A DNA stretch of 31,029 nucleotides from a virus (IMGVR_UViG_3300045973_000444:1-31029), one strand, 5' to 3'. Shown: positions 2,522 to 25,771, counted from the stretch's first letter. Notes: generated by a model from the letters alone, not told the origin. Numbers and translations: made by a program.

Positions 2522-2549
2522 AAACAAAATACCCCCAATCGTGCCACCG

Positions 2550-2963: not shown

Positions 2964-3032
2964 AGGACCCCTCCTATCATAGAGAAATATTCTAACTAAA
3001 TTAACCGATGGTAGTAGAAACTCAAGACACAA

Positions 3033-3482
3033 TTAATCAACAAAGCCTGTTTTGTATACGGTGCGAGTCCCCTGTTTTGTCGCTGTCAATATCTCCCCGC
3101 GTGGATTGCCGCTGAGTCCGACATGTACCCATCCAGTCGGGCCAAACTCATAAATGATCTGATCAAATTTACCAGCCATATTCTGAGCAATCCAGCGGCA
3201 CACATCAATGTTCGGGACTCCCGACACCTCAAAGTCTGCGGCATGGGCGAAACGGTGAGCAGACGTTGCTGATCCACCTACTGCCGCATTGACGGCGGGA
3301 GAGCGGAAACAGCTGGTGACGTGGATCGATGCTTTAAAATGTGCGCGTACTGTTTCCAAAAACTCAGCCACCTGCTGCATATTTACAAGCAGATGTTTAG
3401 GGCATACGTTCGGCAAGCCAAGTCGTATTGCTGTTGATGATCTTTCCATTTCTTCGCGGGTAAAGTGTTCGGTAAGTTTCAT
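3033..3482 (-). CDS. M15A-type peptidase endolysin
   Basis: The protein has 149 residues, the usual size for single-domain phage peptidases of the D-Ala-D-Ala carboxypeptidase / L-alanyl-D-glutamate endopeptidase group (M15A). The zinc ligands are visible as H76 and D83 in SAHRFAHAADFEV and H120 in WVHVGLS. The stretch FDQIIYEFG that precedes the last histidine is also characteristic. It would cleave peptidoglycan cross-links to release progeny. No signal peptide is seen, so it would need a holin. The ATG at 3482 follows GGAGG. The earlier in-frame start at 3521 lies inside the tail fibre gene. The start codon overlaps no other gene but comes only two bases after the fibre stop. A virion-borne role is possible but less likely. 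Confidence 0.88.
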   Translation of the reverse strand: MKLTEHFTREEMERSSTAIRLGLPNVCPKHLLVNMQQVAEFLETVRAHFKASIHVTSCFRSPAVNAAVGGSATSAHRFAHAADFEVSGVPNIDVCRWIAQNMAGKFDQIIYEFGPTGWVHVGLSGNPRGEILTATKQGTRTVYKTGFVD

Positions 3483-3484
3483 AA

Positions 3485-12600: not shown

Positions 12601-12804
12601 TACGGTTGCCCTCCGTTTCGCCTCTTGACCGTTGTCAGCCCGTAGCGCTTCAGTCGGCATCCCGACACGTCGCGCCAGAGTACGCAAGTTCGCTTCCTGA
12701 TCTGGATTGACATCAGCTGACAGGTAAGCAGCCCGACCAAGGCGACTTGAAGTCTGATTGTCCAGATCGTCAATTATCGAATCGTACTCGTTGACTCCCG
12801 GCAT
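6670..12804 (-). CDS. Giant polyvalent internal virion / DNA ejection protein
   Basis: The protein has 2044 residues, far longer than T7 gp16 (about 1318), whose position it occupies between the core proteins and the fibre. Residues about 100-330 are rich in small and hydrophobic residues with amphipathic helices. Residues 778-792 (ASTFIHELGHYYHEV) contain a zinc metallopeptidase motif, HELGH at 782-786. Residues about 880-1330 are charged and coiled-coil-like. The C-terminal third (about 1690-2044: FFSTTYN, a hydrophobic helix near 1895-1915, GYLSGGFIGFRELG) resembles the domain called large polyvalent protein-associated domain 38. Such proteins are packaged in the head and ejected to build the path through the envelope. 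The peptidase-like site could process the virion or cut host wall or proteins, which is inference. The ATG overlaps the previous stop as TAATG, with AAGGGGG before it. Confidence 0.8.
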   Translation of the reverse strand: MPGVNEYDSIIDDLDNQTSSRLGRAAYLSADVNPDQEANLRTLARRVGMPTEALRADNGQEAKRRATVEQMQMLPSHYPRTAEWLSNPENAKIAHDDIKELSTIETVISKFRNGAGSLAAVPWSTSQGLWSAPRVVGDLLQTLTKPLSEITGLPDVGGKLAQYSTEQQKGAGETAKYLRGKREGAGLVETGIYSGIESLGQNLLMMPATLLSGSATPMLLGMSASQGGQSYGEARDSGHSVLASSLFGASQGAIEYATEMIPALRFVDAMKGKTTLAKALKNVLGPDVLGEQVATLSQDLNEWAVTNPDKPFSSYLEERPSAAAQTFIATIIGTGGMVATAKGLEKIGSSVEKYQAAKEESDFLIALGDSVKASKVFARLPSALQEIVKQIKQDGSVQDIYVPVDKFTELFQSQGMDPRQAAEQILSDPKRFYEAQATGGDVAIPLEEFARLADAPFYGELAKDARTSLTGMTAREAEAFGQDHEKTVNDLLQTISETVPPVEDAKYQDAYQRIYDDTYGQLIGVNQNPSEAQANATLRAKGLATLAQRYGYDADTLMAQFPISVTRGELPAALQRQPSFTEQQQTAKLAEMLDTLRSGKQVKESEMFGPSLGELLREKGVKDDRGDLSAMDVDKGLKFKKKMLRENGLSLDKARQLAVDQKYLPEGATTEDLLDALANEMRGQAKYSPEFTNHVLIDQKQIHDELAQWLDMMGVDLAQTDNSKIMEMMQQSVDRFADAGKVMNQSFQSKKDVKRGYIKFGDNVPGFEIALLKDADASTFIHELGHYYHEVLGRLATHENAPETLKRDYQTILSWLGATDKQSLTVEQSEKFARGFEAYLYEGNAPSQELRGVFQRFKTWLKAVYSSLKSLNVELSDDVRGVFDRLLATDDEIKAAEGEQNVKSIFATAEEAGMSQSVFDAYRKLAEQAHEDAKDRLERAKLKEVKRTHQAWWKEARAKMAEEVEAEAKQEPVYEVLNFLYTGKLFDGSTFEGQSFKFSGSELVKMYDAATVKGMRKRLGDVYRNEGGISPHVVAEMFGFSSVDEMIKKMMEVPKLKEYVKQETERRMNEQYGTMNTAEIADEAINAVHNEEQAKLLREELKAIRRKVKEVKPFVQAGVNAAVDREKAEREYERRWMEAERKLAVAIERGAKQAEIDDLKESIRADKDRARAAKKMAAESIPPIEFFKEAARRHIAGLKVSEILPGKFGRAEAKAGKEAFELNGKGQFAEASQAKQRQLLNHFLYREATEARAEADKISSYMRGLEAGKVQQRIGKAGQDYLDQVNALLDKYEFRRKTGAELDARESLLDCMDRYEKAHGYAPPVAPSVMEEAKQVNYRSLTFGELVDVKDTVEAIVHLARTEGKLLQDELKRDIIEVAEEGAASIDLNSKGRKPRKPEKTLPQDLPGKYMENYFASHRKMSSLARQMDGGQDGGAIWNMLIRPMNVAGDREAMMRAEAATKLNEIFRVYSGLERTKMHRREFIPEINNSISKWGRIMVALNMGNEGNRQRLASMYSTTEVEAIVSTLDQRDWQFVENIWGMLESYWPEIEAKEKRVNGVAPKKVETMPVVTKFGTIQGGYFPIKYDREETAKTGGQEEAEVYKQMMGGAFTKATTRHGHTEARLEAVNRPLSLSIDTIFQHFNQVIHDLTHHEMLVDVNRLLGTTELQEAIRDNYGMEAYRVFTDGVRDVAVGDIPAQEAFEKFMAYTRVGISTAGLGYNLITSMMQPLGLTQSIVRIGPQWVGKGIGRWIGSPKRMIETADWIYSQSDFMKTRAMTQNREIAEIQNQMTVGVIPNSVRDSFFYLIQQCQKVVDIPTWLGQYEKSMAEHGNEADAVAEADQAVIDSQASGQMKDLARIQRGGPMKKMFTTFYSFFSTTYNLAAESAGRTHFKNPAEVGRFMVDMLMLYTVPVVLTVALKESIQRAIGGGDPDDEKLLLKLAGEQLGYLSGGFIGFRELGSMFSGFQGYEGPAGARVYSSIIKFFKQVGQGEIDEALIKAGNGLGGILFHYPATQVQRTVEGMKELSDGRGNLLSLLFGKPKKN

Positions 12805-14591
12805 TATTTCGCCCCCTTACTCTGCTTCTTGACATAGACCTGAATAATCGCCGCGTCACTTGAAGATCTACCTCTGCCAGATAGCGCCTTCCTGATTTTA
12901 TCCGCTTCAACTTTCGGTACATCGGCGAGAGTCATTTTGTAAGCCGACTTGTCAAATCCCCACGGTATATCCACTTCCATCAGAGCTTCACGCGCAAACT
13001 GTGTCACATGTTCAGGAGATGGTTTCTCTTTTGACAGAAAGATTCTATCGGCGACAAACTTCTTGACGGCCTTCTCCTCGTCGCTTTCTGGCTTGATATT
13101 TGCTGCTTTAATGACTTTATCGACTCCCTTTGCTTCAGCTAGGATATGATCCGGGTCGTAACTCTTCTGCCGTGTCTCCAACTTCTTACCATCTTCAGGG
13201 GATAGCGCACCCATCGCCACCATGCCTTCAAGGTCAGCATCAACCAGAGCTGCAGGATTGCCCCATAGACCGGAATAGTTTCCGTCCTGTTTCTTCTTCA
13301 ATGCCAATCGTTCAGCCTTTGCCGTTTCGCGCTCCTTGCGGTATTCGTCACGGTCCTGCTTCGCTTCCGCCCGGTCAATCTTTGCCTGCTTACGATCCAG
13401 CGCCGTACGTGATTCAGACTGAATACTTCGGAGAATATCGTCGGCTTTATCAGGATCGGTATCAACCAGGTTCGTCCAATCTTTATTGTCGAAATCAGAG
13501 AGAGAAGGTATTCTCCCTTCCCGCCGAGCGTTCGCCATTGCCTTACTGATCGGTCGTGATGCTTCCTGCCGTGCTATCCTGATACCTTTTTCGCGCATTG
13601 CGGCCATTTGGCTAATCTGTGCTTCGGCAATATTCAGAGCGTCCGGATTGTCCTTGAGATCCGCCTGAGCTTTGTAAAGAGCGGATTCAACAAGACCGTC
13701 AAGTTCGTTTGGATCTTTGACCCCGGCAAACGTGGCACCTAGAGCAAGTGCGGTATTCATGCCTACCTGTTTCGTCACCAGCTGTTTCATAGAATGCTCA
13801 ATTTTAATTGCATCCATGCCGAGCATCTTGTCTTTGTTGGCCTCAAAATATGTTTTGGCCTTAAGCGGATTATCAACGGACATCTTCTCAATTACGGCCT
13901 TGTGAACCATTGATTCCCAGGTGTCCACCTTTGCCTTGACCGCTTGAGGGGGCATACCTTTGTTTTCGGTGTCGGTCATGATCACTCCCAGACCGTACTT
14001 CCGCTCCTGTTCGATACGATCCGGATCTTGAAAGTGCATGACGATATTGTTTAACGTTGATTCGAGGCTCGCACGATTGGCAGTCTCGGCGTAACTCTTC
14101 AATTCTCCGCTTACATGCCGTTCCAGCTGCTTGTCTATTTCCACTCTCCGCTGTTGGGCAAACAGCTTGAACGTATTCTTCGCATCCGGTGAAGCAATAC
14201 CGTTTTCAATCTCAAGCGCAGATTCGTCAAAAGCCTTAAGAGTCGGTTCTGTTATGGTGAATGCCTCCTTGCCCCGCTTGCCGATAACCCCGTTCTCCGG
14301 ATGGTACAGAAGATCAACCTCTTTCTGGTCGAGCTTTGTTCTGGCTTCAATCGCCATGGTACGGATAGCCTTTTGATGCTCTTCCGTAGCATATGCCATC
14401 ATCTCGCCACCGGCCTTTTGCATTCCCGCCCCAAGTCCTGCCCCGAACGCTTCAGCGCCAAGACCTTGAGCACGGGGAGCATTGATACCTTGAGTAGGCG
14501 TAACCGCTGTCGGGTCCATGCGCGGCACCCGGGGAGAGGTCATGATTGCGGTACCGGTTATTACGTTGAGCCTGGAACGGTTCACTCTCAT
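12804..14591 (-). CDS. Internal virion protein, helical (T7 gp15-like position)
   Basis: The protein has 595 residues, is almost wholly predicted helix, and is rich in Lys, Glu, Ala and Arg. A Pro/Gly-rich N-terminus is followed by long amphipathic helices. Residues about 400-440 are extremely charged and coiled-coil-like (RAEAKQDRDEYRKERETAKA). It lies between the gp14-like and giant proteins, exactly where T7-like phages place their middle ejection protein, so I call it a core protein by position and character rather than by a specific motif. It overlaps the upstream gene by ATGA at 14588-14591 and the downstream one by TAATG, so translation is probably coupled. A later start at residue 17 (MTSPRVPRM) is possible but has no better ribosome binding site. 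Confidence 0.7.
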   Translation of the reverse strand: MRVNRSRLNVITGTAIMTSPRVPRMDPTAVTPTQGINAPRAQGLGAEAFGAGLGAGMQKAGGEMMAYATEEHQKAIRTMAIEARTKLDQKEVDLLYHPENGVIGKRGKEAFTITEPTLKAFDESALEIENGIASPDAKNTFKLFAQQRRVEIDKQLERHVSGELKSYAETANRASLESTLNNIVMHFQDPDRIEQERKYGLGVIMTDTENKGMPPQAVKAKVDTWESMVHKAVIEKMSVDNPLKAKTYFEANKDKMLGMDAIKIEHSMKQLVTKQVGMNTALALGATFAGVKDPNELDGLVESALYKAQADLKDNPDALNIAEAQISQMAAMREKGIRIARQEASRPISKAMANARREGRIPSLSDFDNKDWTNLVDTDPDKADDILRSIQSESRTALDRKQAKIDRAEAKQDRDEYRKERETAKAERLALKKKQDGNYSGLWGNPAALVDADLEGMVAMGALSPEDGKKLETRQKSYDPDHILAEAKGVDKVIKAANIKPESDEEKAVKKFVADRIFLSKEKPSPEHVTQFAREALMEVDIPWGFDKSAYKMTLADVPKVEADKIRKALSGRGRSSSDAAIIQVYVKKQSKGAK

Positions 14592-15097
14592 CTTGTACCC
14601 GCCTTGTACCCGTAGTATGAGTTTGAAGCCCCTCCCAGAAATGTACCGGCAGCGTTCAAATATCCGGTTCGTTGCGCAGCTGCACCCTGAAACTCATCAA
14701 GCGTCGATTGGGCCTTGTACCCCCAGGCTTCCCGGTGAGCATTGTTGACCGTTCTCAGCGCGTCCAACTCTCCCAGTCCTGCGGTTTCAGTCAGCAACGC
14801 CAGCGGTGTACCGGTGCTGATCGACACACCTGACATTGCCGCCCCTTCCGCCTGTGCAGATGCAACCTGCCGCGCCTTGTCACGCTTCAACGCCGCCTCA
14901 CTTGCGCCCCGCTGCAAAGCATCCTGAGCCTTCATCCTGCCCATTTCTGCATTGTAGTTTGCGGCGTCCTTCTGGCTTTCTCCCGCCTGTACTTGAGCGT
15001 ATGTGGATACTCCAGCCGCAGCAACTGAAGCTATTGCTGCTATGGTAGCCGGTTCGCATGTGCTGATTGCTCTGGCATGGATGATTGTGAGTTTCAT
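14588..15097 (-). CDS. T7 gp14-like internal virion protein with N-terminal leader
   Basis: The protein has 169 residues. The body has the pattern of podovirus gp14-like core proteins: CEPATIAAIASVAAAGVS, then SGVSISTGTPLALLTETAGLGELDA and NNAHREAWGYKAQ. In the infecting virion such proteins form part of the ejection conduit in the outer membrane. The family usually begins Met-Cys-Glu-Pro, to my knowledge. Here 13 residues (MKLTIIHARAIST) precede the Cys, and GAGGAG lies eight bases before this ATG, so the leader is translated. A similar leader occurs on the small protein at 25553-25771 and related ones on the capsid and cement proteins. It starts one base after the gp13-like gene and its stop overlaps the next start by ATGA. 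Confidence 0.82.
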   Translation of the reverse strand: MKLTIIHARAISTCEPATIAAIASVAAAGVSTYAQVQAGESQKDAANYNAEMGRMKAQDALQRGASEAALKRDKARQVASAQAEGAAMSGVSISTGTPLALLTETAGLGELDALRTVNNAHREAWGYKAQSTLDEFQGAAAQRTGYLNAAGTFLGGASNSYYGYKAGTR

Positions 15098-15098
15098 G

Positions 15099-15572
15099 CT
15101 ATCTCCTCAGTGTGAAGTGGTAAAACGGGACGTTGCGTATACCGGCAGGAACGGGAGTATCAGATACGGTGAAGCCGATCCACCGGAGCCATTCGATTGC
15201 TTTGACGTTGGAAGCCGCCACATAGTTTGACAGTACCGGATACAGCTCAAGCATCTCTGCAATCTTTGGTCGGTTACGCCGCAAGAACATGACGGCAACA
15301 AGAGGATCATCAAGTAACTTGGTGCCGACCATCCACGGTCGGCCATGGCCAGACAGCATCACGCCTATCGGAGCCACCCCGAACATGCACACAGGCTCAT
15401 CATCAACCATTCCAGTCCAGGACACGGTGGATAGCCTGAGAGCCTGTTCCAGCACCTGCCGAGCAGTCCGGTAGTTAGCTGCAAACTCCAGACGGTCGGC
15501 ATCTCTCACATTGGCGGCAACCATAGCGATATGCTCCGGTTGTGCCGGTATGATTGTCGCCTTACGCCCCAC
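15099..15572 (-). CDS. T7 gp13-like / GNAT-fold protein
   Basis: The protein has 157 residues if it starts at the GTG at 15572. It contains LEFAANYRTARQVLEQALRL, ...VCMFGVAPIG and a C-terminal SNVKAIEWLRWIGFTVSD. This resembles a degenerate GCN5-type acetyltransferase and matches the family of T7 gp13, a protein needed for assembly of the internal core. The characteristic acetyl-CoA loop is not convincing, so enzymatic activity is doubtful. The GTG has TGAGG nine bases upstream, within the last codons of the nozzle gene. The longer frame begins with a TTG at 15581 that touches that motif directly, so I prefer the GTG. It overlaps the nozzle gene by 11 bases and is followed one base later by the gp14-like gene. 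Confidence 0.75.
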   Translation of the reverse strand: MGRKATIIPAQPEHIAMVAANVRDADRLEFAANYRTARQVLEQALRLSTVSWTGMVDDEPVCMFGVAPIGVMLSGHGRPWMVGTKLLDDPLVAVMFLRRNRPKIAEMLELYPVLSNYVAASNVKAIEWLRWIGFTVSDTPVPAGIRNVPFYHFTLRR

Positions 15573-18261
15573 CGATTGCAACCTCAGGTATCGCCGCTAG
15601 GATAGTTGCCGGTAATGGATTGGACTGACGCACAAACACCCTGCCACCCTCTGACCAGTCGGATATGATGTTTGCTTTGATGGTGCCTGTTTCCGATGAC
15701 ACCGGAGTCCCGTACTGACCTGACATCATCGGCATGATTCCGAGCAGATGGTCCGCATCCGGTCCCGCTTGCAAGCCGCGAGTGTCTTCCACAATCAAGG
15801 TCACGCTGCGTACGTTCTTCACCTTGTCCTGCATCGACTGACCCTGGACATTGAGATCAAGTGTTTCAAAGTCGGAGTCATACGGCAGGCCCACGTGTAC
15901 CACCGTTGCGGGGGATTCAAGAGTAATGGATCCATCGGTTACTACCTGCTGCGCCTGGACGTTGCCATCAGCCATCACTGCTACCGTTTTACCTTCCAGA
16001 TGTGCCAGCCCTCCAAAAGTGTTTCGGGCAAACTGAATGCCGGTGACCGTGCCGCGCAGTTCAACGGGTACGGTCTTGGATGGTTGCACCTTCACCACCG
16101 TAGCAGATACATACTCAGTGATCGTGAGGCGCAGCAACGTTCCGTCGGCAGCAGTGGCAATCATCACGTCATTAACATCACCACTGCCGGTAAAAAGATT
16201 AGTGTCTGAAATGAAGCCCATCGTTTCCGTGTACAGCCAGTCTACAGCGCCGGACAAATGCCACTGAACCGCAGTCAGATCAATATCGACACTGGCTATG
16301 GTTACGGTGCCTCTGCCGTCATAGGTCAGGCCGCTATCCACAAAGAAAGCGTCCTTGATATCGGCAAAGAACCTGCTGGAAAACCGCTCGATGTATCGCT
16401 TGGTCTGACCGCCTATTGTCCGCTTCACTACCGCATACACGGAGTCTTCGTTCCCTTCCGGAATAGAGCATATTGACTCAAAGAGACCGTCGGTGTCATG
16501 CCGGTGCCAGCCCACAACGTCATGCTCAGGCATATAGGTAAGTCCCAGTAACCCGCCGTCATCCATCACGATCCAGACCGTTGAAAATGGAACTTCCTGA
16601 AATGCCCACTCTCGGACTGTCTTATTGAACAGCAGATGAGAACCGGTCATGGTAAGGTCTTTACCTTCGTACGAATCAGACTCGAAGAAATACCCCATGG
16701 AACGGATGGAACCGCCCTTTTCCATCACAAATAGCGCCTTTTGCCCCACCACTACAGGCGGCACATGCGAAGCCCCACCCTTCCCCTGAAAGTCCACCAG
16801 TGGCACGGGACTATTCTGATCCTTCTTGATTACCCATGCTCCCTCATTTGTCAGAGCCACCAGTTCCCGCAGCCCGACAAAGTGACGTATTTCGTTTGCG
16901 CGGCGTGAGTTGAGATCAAAGGTTATTGCATCATCATCGAGGATCGGGTTTGATTGCCCGAAGTCGGCAAAACCGGCTGTGCGGGATTCCCACACCGTTT
17001 GTGGCCGTGCAGTACTCCCACCGAATACCTGCCGCTGCTGATGATATATTGCCGCCGCTGGATAGCCCTGTTCTCCTCCCCACGCTTCGAATGCCCATTT
17101 ATATGACGCGGTTGCAGAGAGTGTCTTCGCCGCTGTACCTCCGCTGGTATACGTTTGGTCGGTATTTATAGTCACTCTGAAGTAATTTGCGTCAACTACA
17201 GTTATTGTCCATGTAGCATTCAACGTGGTCAGACCAGACACACCGCTGATTGTGACCGTGTTACCGGTTGCAAAATCATGAGCCTCACAATGCACAATCA
17301 CGTAAGCATCGACTGGTGGATCGAACCCACTGTAACCATATGCAACCGCACCGGTTATGGACTTTGAAAATGTCACGTTCACCAGCGTATCGGGTATCAA
17401 TGACAGTACCGTGACAACAGCATGCCGCGCATCAGTCACTGACGTTATTCTGGCTATGCCGTAGCCGGAATGCTGGTACTGCCAAGGGACTCCAGGGTCA
17501 CCGTCATATTCCAAACCATCCAGGGTAGACGGCCTTACTGTGCCGGTTGTACCGTTTGCTAGCGCCTTGTAATAACTGGTACCGCCTCTCCGTATCTCAT
17601 TGACGGTTATTTCTTTCTGTACTTCCCATCTCCGTACGCTCTCAGATTGCACGTTCGAATCAGCTTCGAGATACAGCAATCGCCCTACCGCATCTGCCGT
17701 GAAAATGTCCCAGTTTGATACCAGAGTGACCGTACCAACTTGTCCGCCTGTGACGGACATGGTTTTCCCGGTATCAACATTAATGTCAAGGAACGGGCCG
17801 CTGGTATTGCTGAATTCTGATAGCGTCCATGAAGTAGCAGAAAGCCTGCTCAACTGGCGCTGTTTGTAACCGCTGTGGCAGATAGTCATCACGTCCAGAG
17901 ACTGAACGTAATTGAGTACGGCAAGATCGTTTTCCAGATATGGCGTAACAACCTCAACAGGGATATCGTCAACTGATACATAGGCGCCGTTCTGGATGAA
18001 CCGTATATATCCCTCTCCCACTTCCAGCACATACGCCTGAGATGATGAAAAGATGAAGTCTATCAGCCTGACCCGTTTTGCCGAGTTCTTGATCTCTGTG
18101 CAAAAACGAGTACCCGGTCGATTGGTAACGCCGCCATACGGCCTGACTATGAAGTTACGGCACGTCTTAAGAGCGGTGTAATATCGGGCAAGATCAACCC
18201 TCGCATATAACGACGGGGCAAACTCTCCGGATGTGAAGCTTGGTTGTGCGATTGCTGCCAT
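15562..18261 (-). CDS. Tail tubular protein B / nozzle (T7 gp12-like)
   Basis: The protein has 899 residues, in the usual size range for podovirus nozzle proteins. The N-terminus is diagnostic: SFTSGEFAPSLYARVDLARY, then LKTCRNFIVRPYGGVTNRPG and SSSQAYVLEVG. The middle contains beta-rich insertions (for example about residues 300-385, with Thr/Val-rich VSGLTTLNATW) and then FGGSTARPQTVWESRTAGF, another family hallmark. Six copies form the distal tail tube through which DNA and ejection proteins pass. It follows the adaptor gene after nine bases and overlaps the gp13-like gene. The ATG is preceded by AAGGGG. I noticed no frameshift or missing section. Confidence 0.92.
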   Translation of the reverse strand: MAAIAQPSFTSGEFAPSLYARVDLARYYTALKTCRNFIVRPYGGVTNRPGTRFCTEIKNSAKRVRLIDFIFSSSQAYVLEVGEGYIRFIQNGAYVSVDDIPVEVVTPYLENDLAVLNYVQSLDVMTICHSGYKQRQLSRLSATSWTLSEFSNTSGPFLDINVDTGKTMSVTGGQVGTVTLVSNWDIFTADAVGRLLYLEADSNVQSESVRRWEVQKEITVNEIRRGGTSYYKALANGTTGTVRPSTLDGLEYDGDPGVPWQYQHSGYGIARITSVTDARHAVVTVLSLIPDTLVNVTFSKSITGAVAYGYSGFDPPVDAYVIVHCEAHDFATGNTVTISGVSGLTTLNATWTITVVDANYFRVTINTDQTYTSGGTAAKTLSATASYKWAFEAWGGEQGYPAAAIYHQQRQVFGGSTARPQTVWESRTAGFADFGQSNPILDDDAITFDLNSRRANEIRHFVGLRELVALTNEGAWVIKKDQNSPVPLVDFQGKGGASHVPPVVVGQKALFVMEKGGSIRSMGYFFESDSYEGKDLTMTGSHLLFNKTVREWAFQEVPFSTVWIVMDDGGLLGLTYMPEHDVVGWHRHDTDGLFESICSIPEGNEDSVYAVVKRTIGGQTKRYIERFSSRFFADIKDAFFVDSGLTYDGRGTVTIASVDIDLTAVQWHLSGAVDWLYTETMGFISDTNLFTGSGDVNDVMIATAADGTLLRLTITEYVSATVVKVQPSKTVPVELRGTVTGIQFARNTFGGLAHLEGKTVAVMADGNVQAQQVVTDGSITLESPATVVHVGLPYDSDFETLDLNVQGQSMQDKVKNVRSVTLIVEDTRGLQAGPDADHLLGIMPMMSGQYGTPVSSETGTIKANIISDWSEGGRVFVRQSNPLPATILAAIPEVAIGGA

Positions 18262-18270
18262 GTGGTCCCC

Positions 18271-18903
18271 TTACATTCTCGCCCGTACGAACTCTGACTC
18301 TGGTTGAACATCCGCCTGTTCTTCGTTGAGAGCCTGCGCCGTAGCTTCTGCAATCTCTTTTTCATAGGCAGCAGCAGCATTGCGCGAATGGTCGATAGTC
18401 TTTGCCAGCGGAAGGGCTACTTCAGCAGACAAGGCCCATGCGAACGCGCTTCTGAACTTGGAGTTATACAGGCGAGGATTTGTGACAAGTTTGGTGTACT
18501 CGATAACTGCCTGATCCTGCCCGGTGCAGATCGTCAAAGCGTCGGTATCATCAAGCGCCAACTCGAACGGAACTTTGTTAGTTATCGTCCATTCTCGGAA
18601 CGTGTCTGCCGTCATCCCTGATTGATAAGGAGGATACAACGCCCTGATTGCCACACAGTCATTCGGATACTCGTAGCGGTACGGCCATTTGAAAGGAGTT
18701 GAACCGCTCTGCTGCAAGGTCACAATCTTTCGGGCAAACGGCCATGGAGCCGCCGCAAGTACCCGCTCACGCACCTCGTCAAACACCGCTATCAGTTCGA
18801 TAGCTTCTTTGGTCCGAGCCGGAGGAGAAAGAGAATCAATCTTCATGGTTATGCCAATACGGGCAAGCGCAAGGTTTGCAATGGAAACATCATCTACTGC
18901 CAT
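18271..18903 (-). CDS. Tail tubular protein A / adaptor (T7 gp11-like)
   Basis: The protein has 210 residues. The N-terminal helix motif VSIANLALARIGI and the later ERVLAAAPWPFARK are typical of the T7 gp11 family, followed by YRYEYPNDCVAIRALYP and AFAWALSAEVALPL. Twelve copies form the ring between portal and nozzle and carry fibre attachment points. The GGAG-type signal AAAGGAGT lies ahead of the ATG. It is directly upstream of the nozzle gene, as in nearly all podoviruses. Confidence 0.9.
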   Translation of the reverse strand: MAVDDVSIANLALARIGITMKIDSLSPPARTKEAIELIAVFDEVRERVLAAAPWPFARKIVTLQQSGSTPFKWPYRYEYPNDCVAIRALYPPYQSGMTADTFREWTITNKVPFELALDDTDALTICTGQDQAVIEYTKLVTNPRLYNSKFRSAFAWALSAEVALPLAKTIDHSRNAAAAYEKEIAEATAQALNEEQADVQPESEFVRARM

Positions 18904-18921
18904 TTTTGTTACTCCTTTCCG

Positions 18922-19617
18922 TTATACGCATATCCCGTTGTTGATTAGTGCGGTGCGAAGCTGGTTGACCAGTGTCAGTGCTGTAGCAAGGTCAGTAGCA
19001 GCGGCACGGACTGTGGCTTTACCTTGTGGTGTGGATCCGTTGCAACCGAACTGCCCTGATACTTGAAGGTATGGGGCGGTAACGTCCATGCCTGCGGCGG
19101 TGAGGGTGATAGTGTTGCTGCTGGTTTCGTCAGATGCATAAAATCCAGTGACCGCATCCAGATATAAAAACGAACCCCCTCCACTAAACGAAAAACCCGC
19201 AACAGAAGCAAATGTCCCATAGGCGTCGCACTGAGCGTTGAACTGACCGATACCAACTGCCAACGAAGCGTTGCCGTTTACCGCATCTACACTGGTTAAC
19301 CCCGCAACAGTGGTATCTATAACAATCTGTTGAAAAGTGGTTGCGCTGTTCGAACTCCTCAGATTAACCGGCCCCACTCCGGTCACTCCGACGTTATCCA
19401 GCGCCAGGGTTTTTAATCCGTCGGGGGAGGTTTTATTGAGGTATCCGCTTAAATCCTGATCCCCGGTATTGTTGCCAGATACTGCATTCAATGCGGTACG
19501 GTTACTGTGTGCAATGTTGGAGTGGATAAACGAGCCCTCATGGGTTGTCACCGCCCCAGCAGCTCCCTTAATGCCACGAAGGATCGTGTTATTCAGTTGT
19601 TGCTGATCTGTCGCCAT
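18922..19617 (-). CDS. Fibre- or spike-like structural protein
   Basis: The protein has 231 residues, is low in charge, and is rich in Ser, Thr, Gly, Asn and Val. The segment VSGNNTGDQDLSGYLNKT is a motif I associate with phage fibres and appendages. The C-terminal FGCNGSTPQGKATVRAA leading to NQLRTALINNGICV resembles a short conserved tail on head fibres and minor tail proteins. The middle (TTVAGLTSVDAVNGNASLAVG) looks like a beta-helix or beta-sandwich. Its place between capsid accessory genes and the tail adaptor would suit a head fibre, a tail needle or a second receptor-binding protein. I cannot choose among these. It is not accompanied by the reverse transcriptase and template repeat that diversify the BPP-1 tropism determinant. 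Confidence 0.6.
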   Translation of the reverse strand: MATDQQQLNNTILRGIKGAAGAVTTHEGSFIHSNIAHSNRTALNAVSGNNTGDQDLSGYLNKTSPDGLKTLALDNVGVTGVGPVNLRSSNSATTFQQIVIDTTVAGLTSVDAVNGNASLAVGIGQFNAQCDAYGTFASVAGFSFSGGGSFLYLDAVTGFYASDETSSNTITLTAAGMDVTAPYLQVSGQFGCNGSTPQGKATVRAAATDLATALTLVNQLRTALINNGICV

Positions 19618-19622
19618 GAGGT

Positions 19623-19985
19623 TTAGTCCTCTCCAGAGCCGTATAATGATTTTGCAATAGCAGCCTTGTCCATCGGTTCGCGCTTCTTTGCCGCAGCTTC
19701 AAGGCCGAGTTCGGTGATTTGCAGAGACATTCTCATTTCCGGCTCTTCGCCCTGGCATTCCTCTTCGCTGCAACTGGTGACCTTGACAACAGCCTGAAGC
19801 GTCATTGTGTCGCCTACCTTTGGCAGTCCCGATATGCCAAGCGCCTTCAATTGCTCGTTCTGCAAGGTGAGTTGCAAGCCCCACGGGTAGCGTGGTTTAT
19901 CGCTGTCACACGAACAAGGGGAACAACAACAGCAGCCTTCCGATTTACCCTCTGATTTTTCCATTGCCATACTGACCATTGTCAT
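19623..19985 (-). CDS. Capsid staple/decoration-like protein with a cysteine cluster
   Basis: The protein has 120 residues from the ATG at 19985, which follows the G-rich signal CGGGGGTGG. The core, YPWGLQLTLQNEQLKALGI ... LPKVGDTMTLQAVVKV ... EMRMSLQITELGL, matches small phage proteins annotated as capsid staple or decoration proteins that clamp capsomers on the inside or outside of the shell. Before this core is a striking run, CCCCSPCSC (19908-19934), and a further CSEEEC pair lies in the middle. No other virion gene here has such a run. Metal binding or disulphide cross-linking of the shell is conceivable. A longer frame reaches back to 20069 but overlaps a separate small gene. The family call is from memory of the pattern and only moderately sure. 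Confidence 0.6.
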   Translation of the reverse strand: MTMVSMAMEKSEGKSEGCCCCSPCSCDSDKPRYPWGLQLTLQNEQLKALGISGLPKVGDTMTLQAVVKVTSCSEEECQGEEPEMRMSLQITELGLEAAAKKREPMDKAAIAKSLYGSGED

Positions 19986-19998
19986 GTTCCACCCCCGT

Positions 19999-20112
19999 TT
20001 ATTTGTTGCGTCTGAATCCACCTGTTTTTGCCACCTGCCGTCTTTCGGTTCTGTTTGAAGGTTCAGCAAACGTCAGCCATACATTTAACAAGAATCCAGT
20101 TGAAAGCTTCAT
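19999..20112 (-). CDS. Possible 37-residue protein
   Basis: This small frame begins MKLSTGFLLNVWLTFA, a basic then hydrophobic N-terminus, and ends in a basic tail (TGGFRRNK). Its ATG is preceded by ACGGGGGCGAGTT. Almost the same sequence, ACGGGGGTGGAAC, precedes the next gene, so the two share a duplicated initiation signal. It fills the gap between the membrane-protein gene and the staple-like gene without overlap. I do not recognise it. It could be a tiny membrane protein or simply a leader. Confidence 0.4.
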   Translation of the reverse strand: MKLSTGFLLNVWLTFAEPSNRTERRQVAKTGGFRRNK

Positions 20113-20125
20113 AACTCGCCCCCGT

Positions 20126-20500
20126 TTATTGTTTTGCAGCACTGGTGAATATCGCTTTCCAGAAACTTGAATCCAGCACGTTCAGCACTTTCTGACCGAT
20201 GTACACCAGGCTTGCCATCACCGCTGTACCTATCAGTGCCAGAATACGCCGCCGCTCTTTCACTATGTTTGCCAGGCTACGCAATGTTTCCGGCTCCATT
20301 TCCTGTAACGCAGAAGCCTGTTGCTCACTCAGGCCCCGGTTACAACCGCCACTCTCTGTAATTAGGAGCATCATGTTTGCCATCCAACGGGCATCAAGCT
20401 TTGACAGGGTATGACTTCTGCGGCTGTCTCCCGGTACCGGTTCCGGAAGCTCGGCAATCATGTTGTTAATCTTTGTATGAATATCCAGCTTCTCAGTCAT
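20126..20500 (-). CDS. Single-helix membrane protein, possibly holin-like
   Basis: The protein has 124 residues. The first 80 are soluble and mixed-charge (KLDARWMANMMLLITESGG, LSEQQASALQEMEPETLRSLANI). A basic patch KERRR precedes one hydrophobic helix (about residues 87-108, LALIGTAVMASLVYIG). The C-terminus is short. The layout of positive patch plus C-terminal helix would fit a protein anchored in the inner membrane. A holin function is only a guess, since the gene lies among capsid genes far from the endolysin. GAGGGGG lies a few bases before the ATG. Confidence 0.55.
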   Translation of the reverse strand: MTEKLDIHTKINNMIAELPEPVPGDSRRSHTLSKLDARWMANMMLLITESGGCNRGLSEQQASALQEMEPETLRSLANIVKERRRILALIGTAVMASLVYIGQKVLNVLDSSFWKAIFTSAAKQ

Positions 20501-20543
20501 GTGGCCCCCTCATATTGCATTAAAGTCTATCGGCTCAATGAAA

Positions 20544-20567
20544 CGCCGGAACCGTCAAGCTCCGGCG
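20544..20567 (-). terminator. Stem-loop after the capsid gene block
   Basis: CGCCGGA (20544-20550) and TCCGGCG (20561-20567) form a 7-bp GC-rich stem with a 10-base loop. On the minus strand it is followed by TTTCATT. It lies 21 bases downstream of the stop of the gene at 20588-20983. The tract is short, so it may be a leaky terminator or a barrier that protects the capsid message from 3' decay. Confidence 0.5.
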
Positions 20568-20587
20568 CTCTATCAGCAGACAGCGGT

Positions 20588-20983
20588 TCAGATTACATCC
20601 TGATTACCTACACCTTTTGAATGATCTACTTCGGGTGAATTCTCATCATCAGACATGCCGGATGGTCCGGTTTCGTCTGTTGAGGATCCATCCTGATGCA
20701 GACGTATCAACTCCGCCAGATGCACCGCGCCATGTGTGGCTTTAAACTGGATACCGAGGCGCTTGCATTCCGCCCTGAGATCATCCCGGCCTTGTCCGGA
20801 GTTCTTGGCTGTACCCTGCCGAACATCTCTTGGAGCATCAGGCAACGTTTCACCGGCAATCGGGTTGCCTTTCTGATCACACGGGACCATCCACGAACCG
20901 CGCTTGCCTTCAAACCGGAATATCTCCCCGACCTGCCGTATCTGCCTGCCATCCCACCCTTCTTTAGTTGCTCGCACTAACAT
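20588..20983 (-). CDS. Conserved-looking phage head-cluster protein, unknown role
   Basis: The protein has 131 residues. The N-terminus MLVRATKEGWDGRQIRQVGE then FRFEG resembles a short domain that I associate with a phage protein encoded next to the cement protein. The middle (ECKRLGIQFKATHGAVHLAELIRLH) looks like a small helix-extended-loop-helix module. The C-terminal third is acidic and disordered, rich in Ser, Asp, Glu and Gly. Function is not known to me. It is read directly after the cement gene, and AGGGAGGTGATAACAG lies before the ATG. Confidence 0.6.
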   Translation of the reverse strand: MLVRATKEGWDGRQIRQVGEIFRFEGKRGSWMVPCDQKGNPIAGETLPDAPRDVRQGTAKNSGQGRDDLRAECKRLGIQFKATHGAVHLAELIRLHQDGSSTDETGPSGMSDDENSPEVDHSKGVGNQDVI

Positions 20984-21011
20984 CTGTTATCACCTCCCTT
21001 TTCAATGTGTA

Positions 21012-21494
21012 TTAAACGGTGTACCCAGATGCATACGTGCGAGTCTTGGCACTCTGCAGGTCTTTTGTCAGGAACGCAGAGAATGCTCCGGCAGTCAGGT
21101 CGGCTGTTGCAACCGTGTAAATAACTCCGACATAGCGTTTGCTGTTTGCCGGAATTTTCATCTTGAGCGCCTGATACCCTGCAATCAGAGTCGCCTTACC
21201 AACGGCCCCTGTTGACGCCAGAGTGGTAGGAGTACCAAGATCGGCAGTGTCGGATTCAACGTACTTGAAATCAACGGTCGCCGAACCGAGTGATGTAACA
21301 GCGGTATCAACCTGAATGACAAGATACGTGTCCTCACCAGTGCCGATATCTGCGCCTTTGGTGTCAAATGAATATGTGGAGGTAGTGCTCCCAGTTGTGG
21401 GGGCCTGTGCATCAGAGAATTCATTGAACTTGTCAATGTAGGTTGTGAGCAATGCTGCGACCAGCATCAGGTTAAGTTTCATTTTTGCAATCAT
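21012..21494 (-). CDS. Capsid cement protein (Bbp16-like) with N-terminal leader
   Basis: The protein has 160 residues. The body, from YIDKFNEFSDAQ through DTYLVIQVDTAVT, KATLIAGYQALKMKIPANSKRYVGVIYTV to FLTKDLQSA, matches the beta-sandwich cement proteins that lock the BPP-1-type capsid, encoded right after the major capsid gene. The family normally begins Met-Tyr-Ile-Asp-Lys, as I recall. Here 18 residues (MIAKMKLNLMLVAALLTT) precede that point. GAGGAG sits seven bases before the ATG at 21494, supporting translation of the leader. An alternative start at MKLNL has no better signal. The leader is close in sequence to that of the major capsid protein. Confidence 0.82.
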   Translation of the reverse strand: MIAKMKLNLMLVAALLTTYIDKFNEFSDAQAPTTGSTTSTYSFDTKGADIGTGEDTYLVIQVDTAVTSLGSATVDFKYVESDTADLGTPTTLASTGAVGKATLIAGYQALKMKIPANSKRYVGVIYTVATADLTAGAFSAFLTKDLQSAKTRTYASGYTV

Positions 21495-21530
21495 GTGAAT
21501 CTCCTCTCTGTTTTTAAGGTGGATTGATGA

Positions 21531-21557
21531 CAGACCGCCCCATTACAGAGCGGTCTG
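21531..21557 (-). other. Stem-loop between capsid and cement genes
   Basis: CAGACCGC (21531-21538) and GCGGTCTG (21550-21557) pair perfectly around an 11-base loop. It lies 12 bases after the major capsid stop and before the cement gene. There is no T-run, so it is more likely an RNA stability or processing element than a terminator. That would fit a highly expressed capsid message. Confidence 0.55.
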
Positions 21558-21569
21558 ACTATGGTCAAA

Positions 21570-22610
21570 TTACACTACCTGCGCTTCTGTCAAGAGCAAC
21601 TTATCTACAATTCTCACAGGAATTCCGTTCCACATGGTGACGCGTTTGCCTGCTACTTTCTCTTCAGTAAGAGTTGCCGGAGCAATCTTCTCGATAATGG
21701 CCTTACGCATAGCAGCCCGAACGGTACGATTGCAGTAAATGGCAACATTTCCGCTGTTGAGATCCTGAATACGCTCTTCAGCGTCGATCATAAAAGTGAG
21801 CAGGTTCTTCATAGCGGTCACATCGGTTCTAATGTTAGAGACATCGATGTTGCAGATACGGGATACATATCTCCAGTCCTTGACGCACATGCCCATGTCC
21901 CATTCCCAAAGGTCCATCAGCGCACGGTAACGGTTACCGACTGCATCAAATGCATCGCCCTCGCCAAGGTCTTTATGCTGAAGACCGGCCATGGAACCTT
22001 TGGGGAACATACCGAAAGCCGTTTCCTCGCCCCATGAGACAAACCAGATGGAGGTGTTATCGGAACCGGTACCGCCACCATCGATGATGTTCATTGAGTT
22101 AGCCGGTGATCCGGAACCGATATCCGAGAAACGCGGAGTAAGGCCTAGGAATTTTTCAGGGTCAACGTCGGTATCACCATACATGACTGCAGCGGCCATT
22201 TCCTGATTCATGGCCTCAATGAATGCAGAGTTTTCCGACAGGCGGAATGCGGCAGAGTTGCCGTTCAGAGCTGCAAGCTTCACGTCAATCTGTCCACGTG
22301 CCGAGAGCATCCCGCAGGTATCGTCTACCGTAACGGTGGAGCTTTTCGACTGTGGCACACCGTAATTCAGCTTGCGCCATGCAGCAGAGGGCAGGCCGGT
22401 ACGGATGCTGGTCCGGTTACCGGTAGGAAGATTGCCCTCGATAAAAAGCATGTCTTCAAGGATCTCATTCTTCTGTGACAGCATCTCAACGATCTTCGGA
22501 ACGTTGCCCTGAGGATCAAGACGCTTTGCCCAGTCTGCGAGAGTAAGTGCTGTGGAGCCGACGGCGGTTGTAGTCAGGATTGCCGCTCCCATGACGAGTT
22601 TAAGTTTCAT
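21570..22610 (-). CDS. Major capsid protein (BPP-1-like) with N-terminal leader
   Basis: The protein has 346 residues. From residue 21, ALTLADWAKRLDPQG, then EGNLPTGNRTSIRTGLPSAAWRKLNYGV, SENSAFIEAMNQEMA and IYCNRTVRAAMRKAI are hallmarks of the major capsid family that includes BPP-1-type phages, whose shell has an HK97-like fold. The ATG at 22610 follows AAAGGAG. The longer frame to 22709 runs through another small gene. The first 20 residues (MKLKLVMGAAILTT and six more) have no counterpart in the family as I know it, where the protein begins at about ALTL. They resemble a short signal-like leader, and the cement protein carries a near relative. The scaffold lies upstream and the cement gene downstream. 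Confidence 0.88.
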   Translation of the reverse strand: MKLKLVMGAAILTTTAVGSTALTLADWAKRLDPQGNVPKIVEMLSQKNEILEDMLFIEGNLPTGNRTSIRTGLPSAAWRKLNYGVPQSKSSTVTVDDTCGMLSARGQIDVKLAALNGNSAAFRLSENSAFIEAMNQEMAAAVMYGDTDVDPEKFLGLTPRFSDIGSGSPANSMNIIDGGGTGSDNTSIWFVSWGEETAFGMFPKGSMAGLQHKDLGEGDAFDAVGNRYRALMDLWEWDMGMCVKDWRYVSRICNIDVSNIRTDVTAMKNLLTFMIDAEERIQDLNSGNVAIYCNRTVRAAMRKAIIEKIAPATLTEEKVAGKRVTMWNGIPVRIVDKLLLTEAQVV

Positions 22611-22644
22611 TGTGTTGCTCCTTTCTGTGTTAAATGGTTTCGGT

Positions 22645-22767
22645 TTATCCGACATTGCAACCAATGGCCGCGCCTGTTTCTTCGATAAGTGTAGAAGCAT
22701 CAGACGCAAAGCCGCCCCGTTTCCGTTTTACCTCCTTTCCTAAAATGATTATTTCATATCCGGCCAT
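22645..22767 (-). CDS. Possible 40-residue protein between scaffold and capsid genes
   Basis: The frame reads MAGYEIIILGKEVKRKRGG, then FASDASTLIEETGAAIGCNVG and TAA. It overlaps the last 19 bases of the scaffold gene. It fills the otherwise unexplained gap before the major capsid gene with a well-formed sequence: a beta-like start, a basic patch, then an amphipathic segment. A strong AAAGGAGG lies within it rather than before the ATG, so the upstream signal is weak. I do not recognise the family. A small capsid accessory role is inferred from position alone. Confidence 0.5.
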   Translation of the reverse strand: MAGYEIIILGKEVKRKRGGFASDASTLIEETGAAIGCNVG

Positions 22768-23582
22768 AATGACTTTGCCGTTGAAACTGTTGAAGCACCG
22801 CCTCCGGTCCCCTGGCTTTCAAAGCCATCCTCTCTCATCCTCATGCCGATCCGATACATTACCCTTATGAATTCGGGATGATTGCCAATACCAATCTCAT
22901 CTACCATCTGCTTCAGCCCTGGAGCACCTGCCGCCAATGTATTGAATGCGCGAAGGGCTACAGAATCGGCTGATGATTGAGGATTTGCAGGGTCCCACTT
23001 TTTGACATCCGCTCCTATTTCGGGATCATTCTTCGCCGCTTCCAGCCATGATGTTTTGCGCTCTTCGTGGGCAGTAAAGATGCCGTCCATGACACGCTGG
23101 ACTGTTTTGGAAGCAATATCCACCAGACCCTGCGCGTCGGCTTGCGTGTACCCTTTCTCTTTTGCCAGCGCCTTGAACTCGTTAACTATCTCCGAATCAA
23201 GCACAACACCTTCAGGTGCGGTGAATTCTGCATACTCTGCCGGTGCCTGATTCTTTTCCGCTTCCCCTGCCTTTACCTTGTCCTCTTCGGTTCGCTGTTC
23301 CTCAGTCATTGTGGCGCGTCTGGTATCTTCCGCCTGATTAGCCGAGACACGTTCCCGCTGTGCGGTGATTTCCTCAGGTGTGAACAGAGTAGAGATATCG
23401 CCGGTATCGGGTACATTGCCGCTACCATCGACACCGGAGCCGGAAGCATCGCCTGCGCCTTCCCCCTCCCCGCCCGTGCCGCTATCTGCTCCAATCCCCT
23501 CCGTTGTCCTCACTGCCGAAACTGTCACCAGATTCAGTATCCTTCTTGCTCCGTTCAAGCTCGGTCTGTCTTTTGCGTTCAT
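22749..23582 (-). CDS. Capsid scaffolding protein
   Basis: The protein has 277 residues and is strongly acidic. Residues about 28-60 are Gly/Ser/Asp-rich and disordered. Next comes a charged helical section, then AEYAEFTAPEGVVLDSEIV and FKALAKEKGYTQADAQGLVDI, a block I know from scaffolding proteins of podo- and siphophages encoded between portal and capsid. The C-terminus (EFIRVMYRIGMRMRED...) is helical and probably contacts the capsid protein. AAGGAGG lies 10 bases before the ATG. This start makes it overlap the Bbp19-like gene by 101 bases. A GTG at 23513 would shorten the overlap to 32 bases but lacks a binding site. Confidence 0.8.
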   Translation of the reverse strand: MNAKDRPSLNGARRILNLVTVSAVRTTEGIGADSGTGGEGEGAGDASGSGVDGSGNVPDTGDISTLFTPEEITAQRERVSANQAEDTRRATMTEEQRTEEDKVKAGEAEKNQAPAEYAEFTAPEGVVLDSEIVNEFKALAKEKGYTQADAQGLVDIASKTVQRVMDGIFTAHEERKTSWLEAAKNDPEIGADVKKWDPANPQSSADSVALRAFNTLAAGAPGLKQMVDEIGIGNHPEFIRVMYRIGMRMREDGFESQGTGGGASTVSTAKSLWPDMK

Positions 23583-23850
23583 CTTGTATCGCCTCCTTTT
23601 GCATAAGTAGAAAACTCTCCGGCAACTGGGACATGATATCCGCCAACAGGATCAATCCGAAGTTGCGTGAGCCTTCGTTGAATGAGGTTACATCTACCGC
23701 CCCTGCCACAAATGACGACCGGAATACTCCTGACGCTCCAAGCACCCTGTGCCATACAAACCGCCGTCCTGATGGTGTATCAAGCACACTTTGCAGATCC
23801 TCGCGCTCCTGTTCAATGCGAACAAACTCTCTGGTCTCTTTGAGATCCAT
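23482..23850 (-). CDS. Bbp19-like phage head-cluster protein
   Basis: The protein has 122 residues. The pattern VLDTPSGRRFVWHRVLGASGVFRSSF, then SFNEGSRNFGLILLADIM, is distinctive of a small family found between portal and scaffold genes in BPP-1-like and related phages (Bbp19-like). Its function is not known to me. The C-terminus is charged and disordered (KKDTESGDSFGSEDNGG) and is encoded by the stretch that also codes for the scaffold N-terminus. The ATG overlaps the portal stop as TAATG, so it is probably translated by ribosomes finishing the portal gene. Confidence 0.78.
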   Translation of the reverse strand: MDLKETREFVRIEQEREDLQSVLDTPSGRRFVWHRVLGASGVFRSSFVAGAVDVTSFNEGSRNFGLILLADIMSQLPESFLLMQKEAIQDERKRQTELERSKKDTESGDSFGSEDNGGDWSR

Positions 23851-25544
23851 TATGCGACACCCCCGCCCAGTCCTGTCATCAGTCTGGTCAAGGCGTTAAC
23901 GCCTGATACGTCGGTTTCACTCAGAGACTTTGCCGCATTTGCCCCTTGTGCCATTGCTGGCATGGCCGCTGCCATCTGTTGCGCCTGTGCCGCTTTGGAC
24001 CGCGCGTCTCTGTTTGCCTGTACCACATCATCAGGAATAACTATCTTCGCCGGTACTCCGGTCATTTCCCCGTACTCATCGACAATCTGATCATAATCTA
24101 CCTTGTCATGCACGTCAGGGCGGAACGTGCCTATCTGTCCGACGAATCCAACAAACCGCTCAATCGAAGCTACACCTATCAGCTTCTGGGCCTGCGCCAT
24201 GATGGACACATACTCCACGCGCAAAGGTTGCCCTTCCAACTCTTTTGGAGGAGTCGGAAACATGCCCCGGCGGAACATGATGTTGAAGGTACGGTCAATC
24301 AGCGGATCGAACAGATCATCATTCGATTGCTCCATCATCGGGCCAAGTACCAACAGCTTCTCACTATGACGCTCTTCAACCTCTCGTGCGGTCATTTGCG
24401 AATTGTCGGACGTTGCCAGCATCAACATCAGGTCTTCATAGAAACAACGCCGGATACGGTACTCAACCTCTTTGATATCCTGACCCAGTACTGTGAATAT
24501 GTTCGGGTCAATGGTCTCAATCTTGCGTATGCCAGGATTCGGAGAGTTACCCATACCGGCGCGCCAGACCACACCACCAGGGAGAAGGTCAACACCGGAG
24601 TTTCTCAGCGTTGCATCAGCCTCAACGGCTCCATTGACGAACTTGTCAAGGGCTTGCAGCTTGCGCCGCTCCTCAAGCTGCAACTGCTTTACCGCTCCCA
24701 GTGCTGTCATGCCCGGGCAGTTGGTCCCGTACACATCCTCCCCGTTAACATACCAGCGCGATGCAATCCCCGGGAACTCGTCATATCCTGAAACTCTCAA
24801 GGGCTTGTCACGTTCCTTGCCCTCTTCGTAGTAGACCGAGATAAAAGCCTTGTCCCGGCTTTCCATGGTCCCCTTACTGGAGAAGTTCGGTTCAATGGCA
24901 TGTATTACGTTTACCCAAGCATTGTATGAAGCTTTGTCCCACAGGTTGCGGACAGTGGTTGACACGTTATCAATACCGAACTTCGTCACCACCTGACGAA
25001 CCGTCATTGAATATTCCCGGTACAGGCAATCCACATTCATCCGGTCGTTGCAGTCGATCATGTATGAGCCAATCGGGAACGGGTATGCCCTGATAACTTC
25101 CTGATCATCCTCCAGCAGTCCGAATGACTGCGTACCGTAAGCGCCAAGTGATCCGTAGGCTTTCGGCAGCACCGAGTACAGATTGCTTCTGGTGTATACC
25201 TCCCGCATCATTCTGGTAACGGTGTCGATCCATTCTTTGACCGGTCCATACTCCTTCATTCCCGGGTCAGGAGGACCAAGAATGAACCACGGACGGGCCG
25301 GTGAAGACATGCCAGCCATCAGCCCTGATTCGAGAGTCCGGTGCGCCAGTGTGGCAGTCTCGTTGATGATGTTCTGATTGACTTTTTCTCCCCGGTTGCG
25401 CTCAGTTCTCAAGTAACGGGCAGTACGCGGCGAAATGTAGGAAGAAATATCCTGCCAATGGCTAATGAAAGAAGATCGTTCCGTTCTCATGGAAACAATC
25501 CTCTGATTGGCGCGTTCGAGTATCAGCTGGTCTTCTGTCTTCAT
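23850..25544 (-). CDS. Portal protein (head-to-tail connector)
   Basis: The protein has 564 residues, standard for podovirus portals. ILERANQRIVSMRTERSSF, HWQDISSYISPRTARY, then RTLESGLMAGMSSPARPWF and YGSLGAYGTQSFGLLED are characteristic of the head-tail connecting protein family, and MTAREVEERHSEKLLVLGP lies in the C-terminal half. Twelve copies form the vertex channel used for DNA packaging and ejection. The tail end (QAQQMAAAMPAMAQ) is Ala/Met/Gln-rich and probably forms the barrel helix into the capsid. GGGGGCGGA precedes the ATG. It is eight bases from the upstream small gene and overlaps the downstream Bbp19-like gene. Confidence 0.93.
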   Translation of the reverse strand: MKTEDQLILERANQRIVSMRTERSSFISHWQDISSYISPRTARYLRTERNRGEKVNQNIINETATLAHRTLESGLMAGMSSPARPWFILGPPDPGMKEYGPVKEWIDTVTRMMREVYTRSNLYSVLPKAYGSLGAYGTQSFGLLEDDQEVIRAYPFPIGSYMIDCNDRMNVDCLYREYSMTVRQVVTKFGIDNVSTTVRNLWDKASYNAWVNVIHAIEPNFSSKGTMESRDKAFISVYYEEGKERDKPLRVSGYDEFPGIASRWYVNGEDVYGTNCPGMTALGAVKQLQLEERRKLQALDKFVNGAVEADATLRNSGVDLLPGGVVWRAGMGNSPNPGIRKIETIDPNIFTVLGQDIKEVEYRIRRCFYEDLMLMLATSDNSQMTAREVEERHSEKLLVLGPMMEQSNDDLFDPLIDRTFNIMFRRGMFPTPPKELEGQPLRVEYVSIMAQAQKLIGVASIERFVGFVGQIGTFRPDVHDKVDYDQIVDEYGEMTGVPAKIVIPDDVVQANRDARSKAAQAQQMAAAMPAMAQGANAAKSLSETDVSGVNALTRLMTGLGGGVA

Positions 25545-25552
25545 TCCGCCCC

Positions 25553-25771
25553 CTATTGGCCGAGCAATGTTTTGCCGCCAGTGATAGGCGCGATGTTCTG
25601 ACCTTGCGTCAGGAATGTATTACTTGCCGATGCTCTCCTCCGTCGCCGTTCATTGTCCCGTGCTGCTACAACTCCAGAGTCCTGCATTTCAGGAGCAGGA
25701 GTGGGAGGCGTGGGGGCTGTAGGGCTGGAACCTCCGCAGGTTGATATGGCTGTCACAAGGGTGATTTTCAT
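25553..25771 (-). CDS. Small CGGSS protein with N-terminal leader
   Basis: The protein has 72 residues. From residue 12 it reads CGGSSPTAPTPPTPAPEMQ, then a basic DNERRRRRASASN and ITGGKTLLGQ. This resembles the short proteins of many phages that begin Met-Cys-Gly-Gly and end in a GGKTLLGQ-like tail, usually encoded near terminase and portal. Their role is unclear to me. Here 11 residues (MKITLVTAIST) precede the Cys. The leader and its junction AISTC are strikingly like those of the gp14-like protein (MKLTIIHARAIST, then Cys). GGGAG lies within the terminase end, and the ATG comes two bases after the terminase stop. The AIST-C junction is only loosely like a lipoprotein cleavage site. Confidence 0.7.
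   Translation of the reverse strand: MKITLVTAISTCGGSSPTAPTPPTPAPEMQDSGVVAARDNERRRRRASASNTFLTQGQNIAPITGGKTLLGQ

Follow-up and report, generated by a model that had tools for sequence, protein, structure and literature searches.

A shared N-terminal leader on six virion proteins of an epsilon15/BPP-1-like podophage as a candidate head-assembly signal

Here we report that six virion proteins encoded in a viral sequence of 31,029 nucleotides (IMGVR_UViG_3300045973_000444, hereafter the window) carry short N-terminal leaders that end in one junction motif, A-[VIL]-x-T-[STC]. These are the scaffold, the major capsid protein, a Bbp16-type cement protein, the gp14-like and gp15-like proteins and a small CGGSS protein. 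With a probability of about 0.5, we read the six leaders as one shared N-terminal head-assembly signal, probably a propeptide that would be cleaved off. Judged from its sequence, the phage is an epsilon15/BPP-1-like podophage, and its structural module is syntenic with that type (GP7 capsid, Bbp16, Head-tail_con portal and Bbp19 in order). No shared assembly leader was found for the epsilon15/BPP-1 group in the isolates and literature examined, and the capsid proteins of BPP-1 are reported to be uncleaved. Such a motif, present on six proteins with unrelated folds, would uncover an assembly or maturation step common to them all, and the leader could serve as a simple tag by which foreign proteins are loaded into particles. 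The identity of the factor that reads it would become directly testable.

Leaders and junction motif

The leaders, their genes and the equivalent leaders of two relatives, G1 and G2, are as follows.

25739..25771, minus strand: leader of the CGGSS protein, MKITLVTAIST before CGGSSPTA, motif AIST then C (ORF table and sequence); in the relatives MKYFSGAAVVT or MKYFSGVAVVT, then CSSS
25553..25771, minus strand: CGGSS protein gene, PHROG 831, homolog of epsilon15 gp3, between terL and portal
23482-23850: Bbp19-like ORF, Pfam Phage_Bbp19, whose 3' end overlaps the scaffold leader in another frame (overlap 23482-23582)
23502..23582, minus strand: scaffold leader MNAKDRPSLNGARRILNLVTVSAVRTT, motif AVRTT, inside the overlap with the upstream Bbp19-like ORF; it ends ILNLVTVSAVRTT, then EGIG, and in the relatives GRRLIFLLATAVLTT, then PGEG
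22749..23582, minus strand: scaffold-like gene, PHROG 458 (labelled 'protease'), predicted all-helical
22569..22610, minus strand: major capsid protein leader MKLKLVMGAAILTT, motif AILTT, with T14 aligned to Met1 of the BPP-1 and epsilon15 capsids; in the relatives MKRKFVMGAAILTT, then TAAG
21570..22610, minus strand: major capsid protein gene, Pfam GP7
21441..21494, minus strand: Bbp16-type cement protein leader MIAKMKLNLMLVAALLTT, motif ALLTT; in the relatives MLRKLKLFLAGAIITT, then IIDKF
21012..21494, minus strand: cement protein gene, Pfam Bbp16
15059..15097, minus strand: leader of the gp14-like internal virion protein, MKLTIIHARAIST before CEPATI, motif AIST then C; in the relatives MKKFICG(P/T)AVMT, then CEP
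14588..15097, minus strand: gp14-like internal virion protein gene, PHROG 418
14538..14591, minus strand: leader of the gp15-like protein, MRVNRSRLNVITGTAIMT before SPRVP, motif AIMTS; in the relatives MKRIFFKYGAAVLT and MKRISFKYGAAVLT, each then TPQVP, summarised as MKRI(S/F)FKYGAAVLT
12804..14591, minus strand: gp15-like internal virion/ejection protein gene, PHROG 1044 N-terminal match

A first-pass annotation of the window had described leaders on four genes. Those of the gp14-like and CGGSS genes lie in the ORF table and the raw sequence just where it had placed them, and capsid and cement also stand; the count rises to six with the scaffold and gp15 leaders, which it had missed. Portal, nozzle, adaptor and both terminase genes lacked a leader, as it had said, and so did the gp13-like GNAT and gp16 genes. 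The window has two cement genes, an epsilon15 gp10-like one (19623-20069) and the Bbp16-type one (21012-21494), and only the latter has a leader.

Comparison with the nearest IMG/VR relatives (L002-L005) revealed leaders on the same six genes in G1 (record G001, 45.5 kb) and G2 (record G002, 27.8 kb), which are the only two well-covered close relatives of the window phage and share 80-81% capsid identity with it. The leader clade is one clade of three genomes, two of them from the same metagenome. All 18 leaders of these genomes had A-[VIL]-x-T-[STC] at the junction. The shared MK(L/I)T start proposed earlier is not the common feature; the conserved portion is the leader end, and conservation was strongest there, eight or more codons past the start. 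When the first 32 residues of predicted genes were scanned with the pattern A[VILA]xT[STC], exactly the six leadered genes were picked out in each genome (6/32 genes in the window, 6/58 in G1 and 6/22 in G2) against a background of 14/1271 genes of other, more distant phages; motif and register were defined post hoc, with the leaders already seen, and these genome-wide counts and the background are the fairer measure of specificity. The fifth motif residue was always S, T or C: T or S in scaffold, capsid, cement and gp15, and the protein's own Cys in gp14 and CGGSS, where the body begins with Cys and the leader stops at T. The Cys junction, present in only two of the six genes, is a special case of the T-[STC] junction.

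The leaders were basic-hydrophobic and 11-18 residues long (27 in the scaffold), and most had a good SD ahead of the starting M and a basic residue close behind it. Their hydrophobic runs reached only about 7-10 residues, with charged residues interrupting the core in gp14 of the window (His and Arg) and in gp15 of both relatives (Lys). Phe occurred in 12/12 leaders of G1 and G2 and in 0/6 of the window, a pattern which, seen post hoc, is suggestive of leaders changing together by lineage. Leader identity between the window and G1 was lower than body identity in five of the six genes.

A DNA pattern for the GAA[VI]LTT leader, run on the whole collection, retrieved capsid and gp15 of known relatives only, plus two chance matches. 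Profile scans with gp14, scaffold and gp15 found no further leadered phage, and the cement scan beyond known relatives found leaderless phages only. A host search with capsid queries in 395 genomes in each of two largely overlapping phylum draws gave matches of at most 50% identity, none of which reached the leader. In searches of the open-access literature, the listed titles and abstracts made no mention of podophage capsid proteins with a shared leader or a signal peptide.

Start positions and peptide-level constraint

The junction coincided with the site of the start Met in leaderless epsilon15, BPP-1 and YA3 and in the nearest cement-bearing outgroups (L200-L205). Met1 of the solved BPP-1 capsid protein aligned with T14 of the window protein, a position extrapolated from residue 5, which matched residue 18. 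Capsid, cement, gp14 and CGGSS no longer have a start codon at the junction. An SD-like GGAG was present upstream of the MK start in the gp14-like and CGGSS genes; near the Cys of these genes there was neither a rival start with its own SD nor a start codon at the Cys itself. The earlier statement that both families usually begin Met-Cys proved too strong, since only 7/43 gp14 relatives and 3/31 CGGSS relatives of our sample do so, although it holds for epsilon15 gp14 and gp3.

With the junction as register, the leaders aligned far better than composition-preserving shuffles, by about 5 s.d. in the window and by about 8 s.d. in G1. When capsid and cement were left out and the final T was fixed, the shuffle test gave p = 0.007 for the window and 0.0004 for G1. 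The leaders are constrained as peptides: of the changes that separate those of G1 from those of G2, 12 were synonymous and 6 nonsynonymous (neutral p = 3e-4). Because the leaders looked conserved at silent sites too, starts of non-leader genes were run as a control. The synonymous rate was 0.178 in leaders and 0.141 in these starts, and on this similarity a nucleotide-level start element was rejected.

A candidate head-assembly signal

One junction motif on six proteins of unrelated fold points to one reader. In the proposed mechanism, one and the same factor would act on the leaders of all six proteins while the particle assembles. The leader would gather the six proteins at the assembling prohead and would then be removed by a cut at, or directly behind, the T|[STC] bond, which would restore roughly the N-terminus of ordinary relatives. 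We infer recognition in trans and, more weakly, cleavage and its exact bond; recognition is the better supported of the two. The distribution of Phe is expected if the leaders follow one lineage-specific reader. In the capsid model the leader was unordered ahead of the HK97 fold (residues 1-18 with pLDDT < 50), and this, together with the motif shared across six proteins, favours a head-assembly propeptide. The first-pass annotation had proposed that some of the virion proteins undergo a process in common. This general idea is upheld: the motif sits on six starts and recurs in two relatives with about 80% capsid identity, the remaining genes of these genomes lack it, and the leaders are constrained at the peptide level. 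The interpretation given there is, as a whole, partly supported. A single role in the prohead interior does not fit easily, as the N-terminus of the BPP-1 capsid protein and the cement protein are external whereas scaffold, gp14 and gp15 are internal. The capsid and cement proteins of BPP-1, both leaderless, are uncleaved (PMC3863775).

We hold only tentatively a more specific version, with a single enzyme or an autocatalytic step that would cleave all six proteins at A-[VIL]-x-T|[STC] and in each case expose an N-terminal Thr, Ser or Cys. If it were true, capsid, cement, scaffold and ejection proteins would be licensed together by a previously unrecognised maturation step. Pfam and PHROG scans of the tested unassigned proteins of G1 and of the window, which is about 14 kb shorter than G1, detected no protease. 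The scaffold 'protease' is not supported as the processing enzyme, given an all-helical model, no significant PDB match and no sequence match. The 'protease' label is shared by PHROG 458, epsilon15 gp6 and BPP-1 bbp18; the AlphaFold model of the window protein (22749-23582) is all-helical and scaffold-like.

The closest parallel in form is phage T4, where N-terminal propeptides sit on core, internal and capsid proteins (10-20 residues long on the internal ones) and are cut by gp21 while the portal remains uncut (PMC5694885). As with the T4 capsid-targeting and gp21 propeptides (internal proteins, Alt, gp23, gp24 and core proteins), a short N-terminal peptide is found here on several head proteins, capsid and core proteins being tagged and the portal untagged; in T4 the peptides of the internal proteins and Alt have 10-20 residues. 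The T4 sites, however, have Glu as their last residue (x-x-E, such as ITE or LTE), while the junction here is A-[VIL]-x-T-[STC] and Glu preceded 0/18 junctions. No gp21-type protease was found among the proteins tested here, the phage group is different, and the leader also occurs on the cement protein and on the gp3-like small protein. With the Glu-ending motif absent and no protease found among the tested proteins, we place the leader system outside the T4 kind. Phages epsilon15, BPP-1 and vB_PaeP_YA3 share the gene order and families with the window (gp3-like, portal, gp5/Bbp19, scaffold, GP7 capsid, Bbp16, adaptor, nozzle, GNAT, gp14 and gp15) but are without leaders and have Met at the junction. 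In P1 DarB the first 30 residues are enough for packaging (PMC9024508), so that in this protein an N-terminal segment is sufficient for capsid targeting; DarB, however, is a single protein, and no shared motif is reported among Dar proteins.

Competing explanations

The second-ranked explanation is that the leaders direct proteins to the membrane: as very short Sec/SRP-type signals they would bring virion proteins to the inner membrane for head assembly, with cleavage by host signal peptidase optional. The basic N-terminus and hydrophobic core agree with it, and [VIL]-x-T, with Thr at position -1, would be a poor but conceivable signal peptidase site. Support also comes from the capsids of cousin phages. 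Among 120 distinct capsid relatives, 25 had an N-terminal extension of at least 9 residues; three of these were the leader clade, and 22 had long extensions of 38-53 residues, most of which combined a signal-peptide-like segment with a second hydrophobic segment and ended where other capsids start with Met. The extra peptide of these cousins (such as L046, L063, L079 and L006) thus ends at the same capsid position as the short leader. Signal peptides also occur on fibre or spike genes of G1 and G2, and release of the T4 prohead from the host membrane (PMC5694885) was counted for this explanation as well. On the other hand, the hydrophobic runs of the leaders are short and are broken by charges in window gp14 and the relatives' gp15, the tightest constraint lies at the junction, outside the hydrophobic core, and capsid or scaffold with a true export signal would be lost from the cytoplasm. 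The cousin extensions are longer, were absent from gp15 and scaffold in the sample and have no A-x-x-T-[STC] junction. Because of this missing junction and the weak cores of the short leaders, we consider membrane direction unlikely, although it ranks second; export, one of the options put forward earlier, is possible but weak, given the short hydrophobic cores and the charges within them in window gp14 and the relatives' gp15.

The long extensions in the cousins raise the question of membrane involvement in podophage head assembly in their own right. Extended capsid genes, about one in six of the capsid relatives in the sampled metagenomic podophages, include those of L046, L049, L063, L069, L072, L075, L079, L081, L127, L130, L135, L140, L146, L153 and L160. 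Most of the long extensions look translated and loosely constrained, with dN/dS in several pairs of about 0.3-0.7 against about 0.1-0.35 for the body; the L006/L017 pair exceeded 1. Signal-peptide-like non-capsid genes numbered 8 of about 93 in phages with extended capsids, as compared to 10/636 in phages without. In L006 both capsid (2530-3666) and cement (3710-4279) have similar N-terminal extensions with two hydrophobic segments.

Rather unlikely, too, and placed third, is a retained structural tail, that is, a leader never removed and serving as a permanent contact element in the particle. The predicted flexibility of the leader is compatible with such a tail, and the model is kept alive by BPP-1, where the uncleaved N-terminus of the capsid protein augments the cement sheet on the outer surface (PMC3863775). 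One contact is nevertheless hard to fit to a motif on unrelated folds both internal (gp14, gp15 and scaffold) and external (cement), and a tail does not require exact placement over the start Met.

A translation-start or DNA cassette, with one start segment copied to several genes or conserved for initiation, is improbable. The starts are similar, most of them having M and a nearby basic residue after a good SD, and repeated acquisition of one start cassette had been suggested earlier. However, codon sharing at identical residues of paralogous leaders was 16/51 against 13.9 expected and 16/61 against 20.1 expected, no higher than codon usage predicts, which disfavours a copied cassette. The synonymous rate matched that of non-leader starts and conservation peaked at the leader end. 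The scaffold leader lies wholly within the overlap with the Bbp19-like ORF, and this overprinting makes a simple inserted cassette impossible there.

Lipoprotein-type modification at the junction Cys, also proposed earlier, is very improbable: gp14 and CGGSS do have aliphatic-x-T-Cys at the junction, but four of the six junctions are without Cys and the leaders of these two proteins (11-13 residues) are too short. The usual lipobox residue at -1 is G, A or S; with Thr there throughout and Cys in 2/6 genes, the junctions do not match the lipobox [LVI][ASTVI][GAS]C. Misassigned starts are hardly credible, for although relatives begin at the junction, an SD precedes the leader and none the junction, the junction start codon is lost in four genes, the leaders are kept in G1 and G2 as well as in the window, and selection acts on the peptide.

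Signal peptides were also seen away from the capsid. Phages with a signal-like capsid have signal-peptide accessory genes upstream of the scaffold (L046:4791-5908, L081:666-2915 and L153:6710-8922), and fibre-like genes of G001 (22200 and 22631) and G002 (3995) start with signal peptides. When the spike-like loci G001:37448-39265 (in L112) and G002:24744-26405 (in L114) were compared, only one of the two relatives had a signal peptide on this spike-like protein, and that peptide bore a lipobox-like LVGC.
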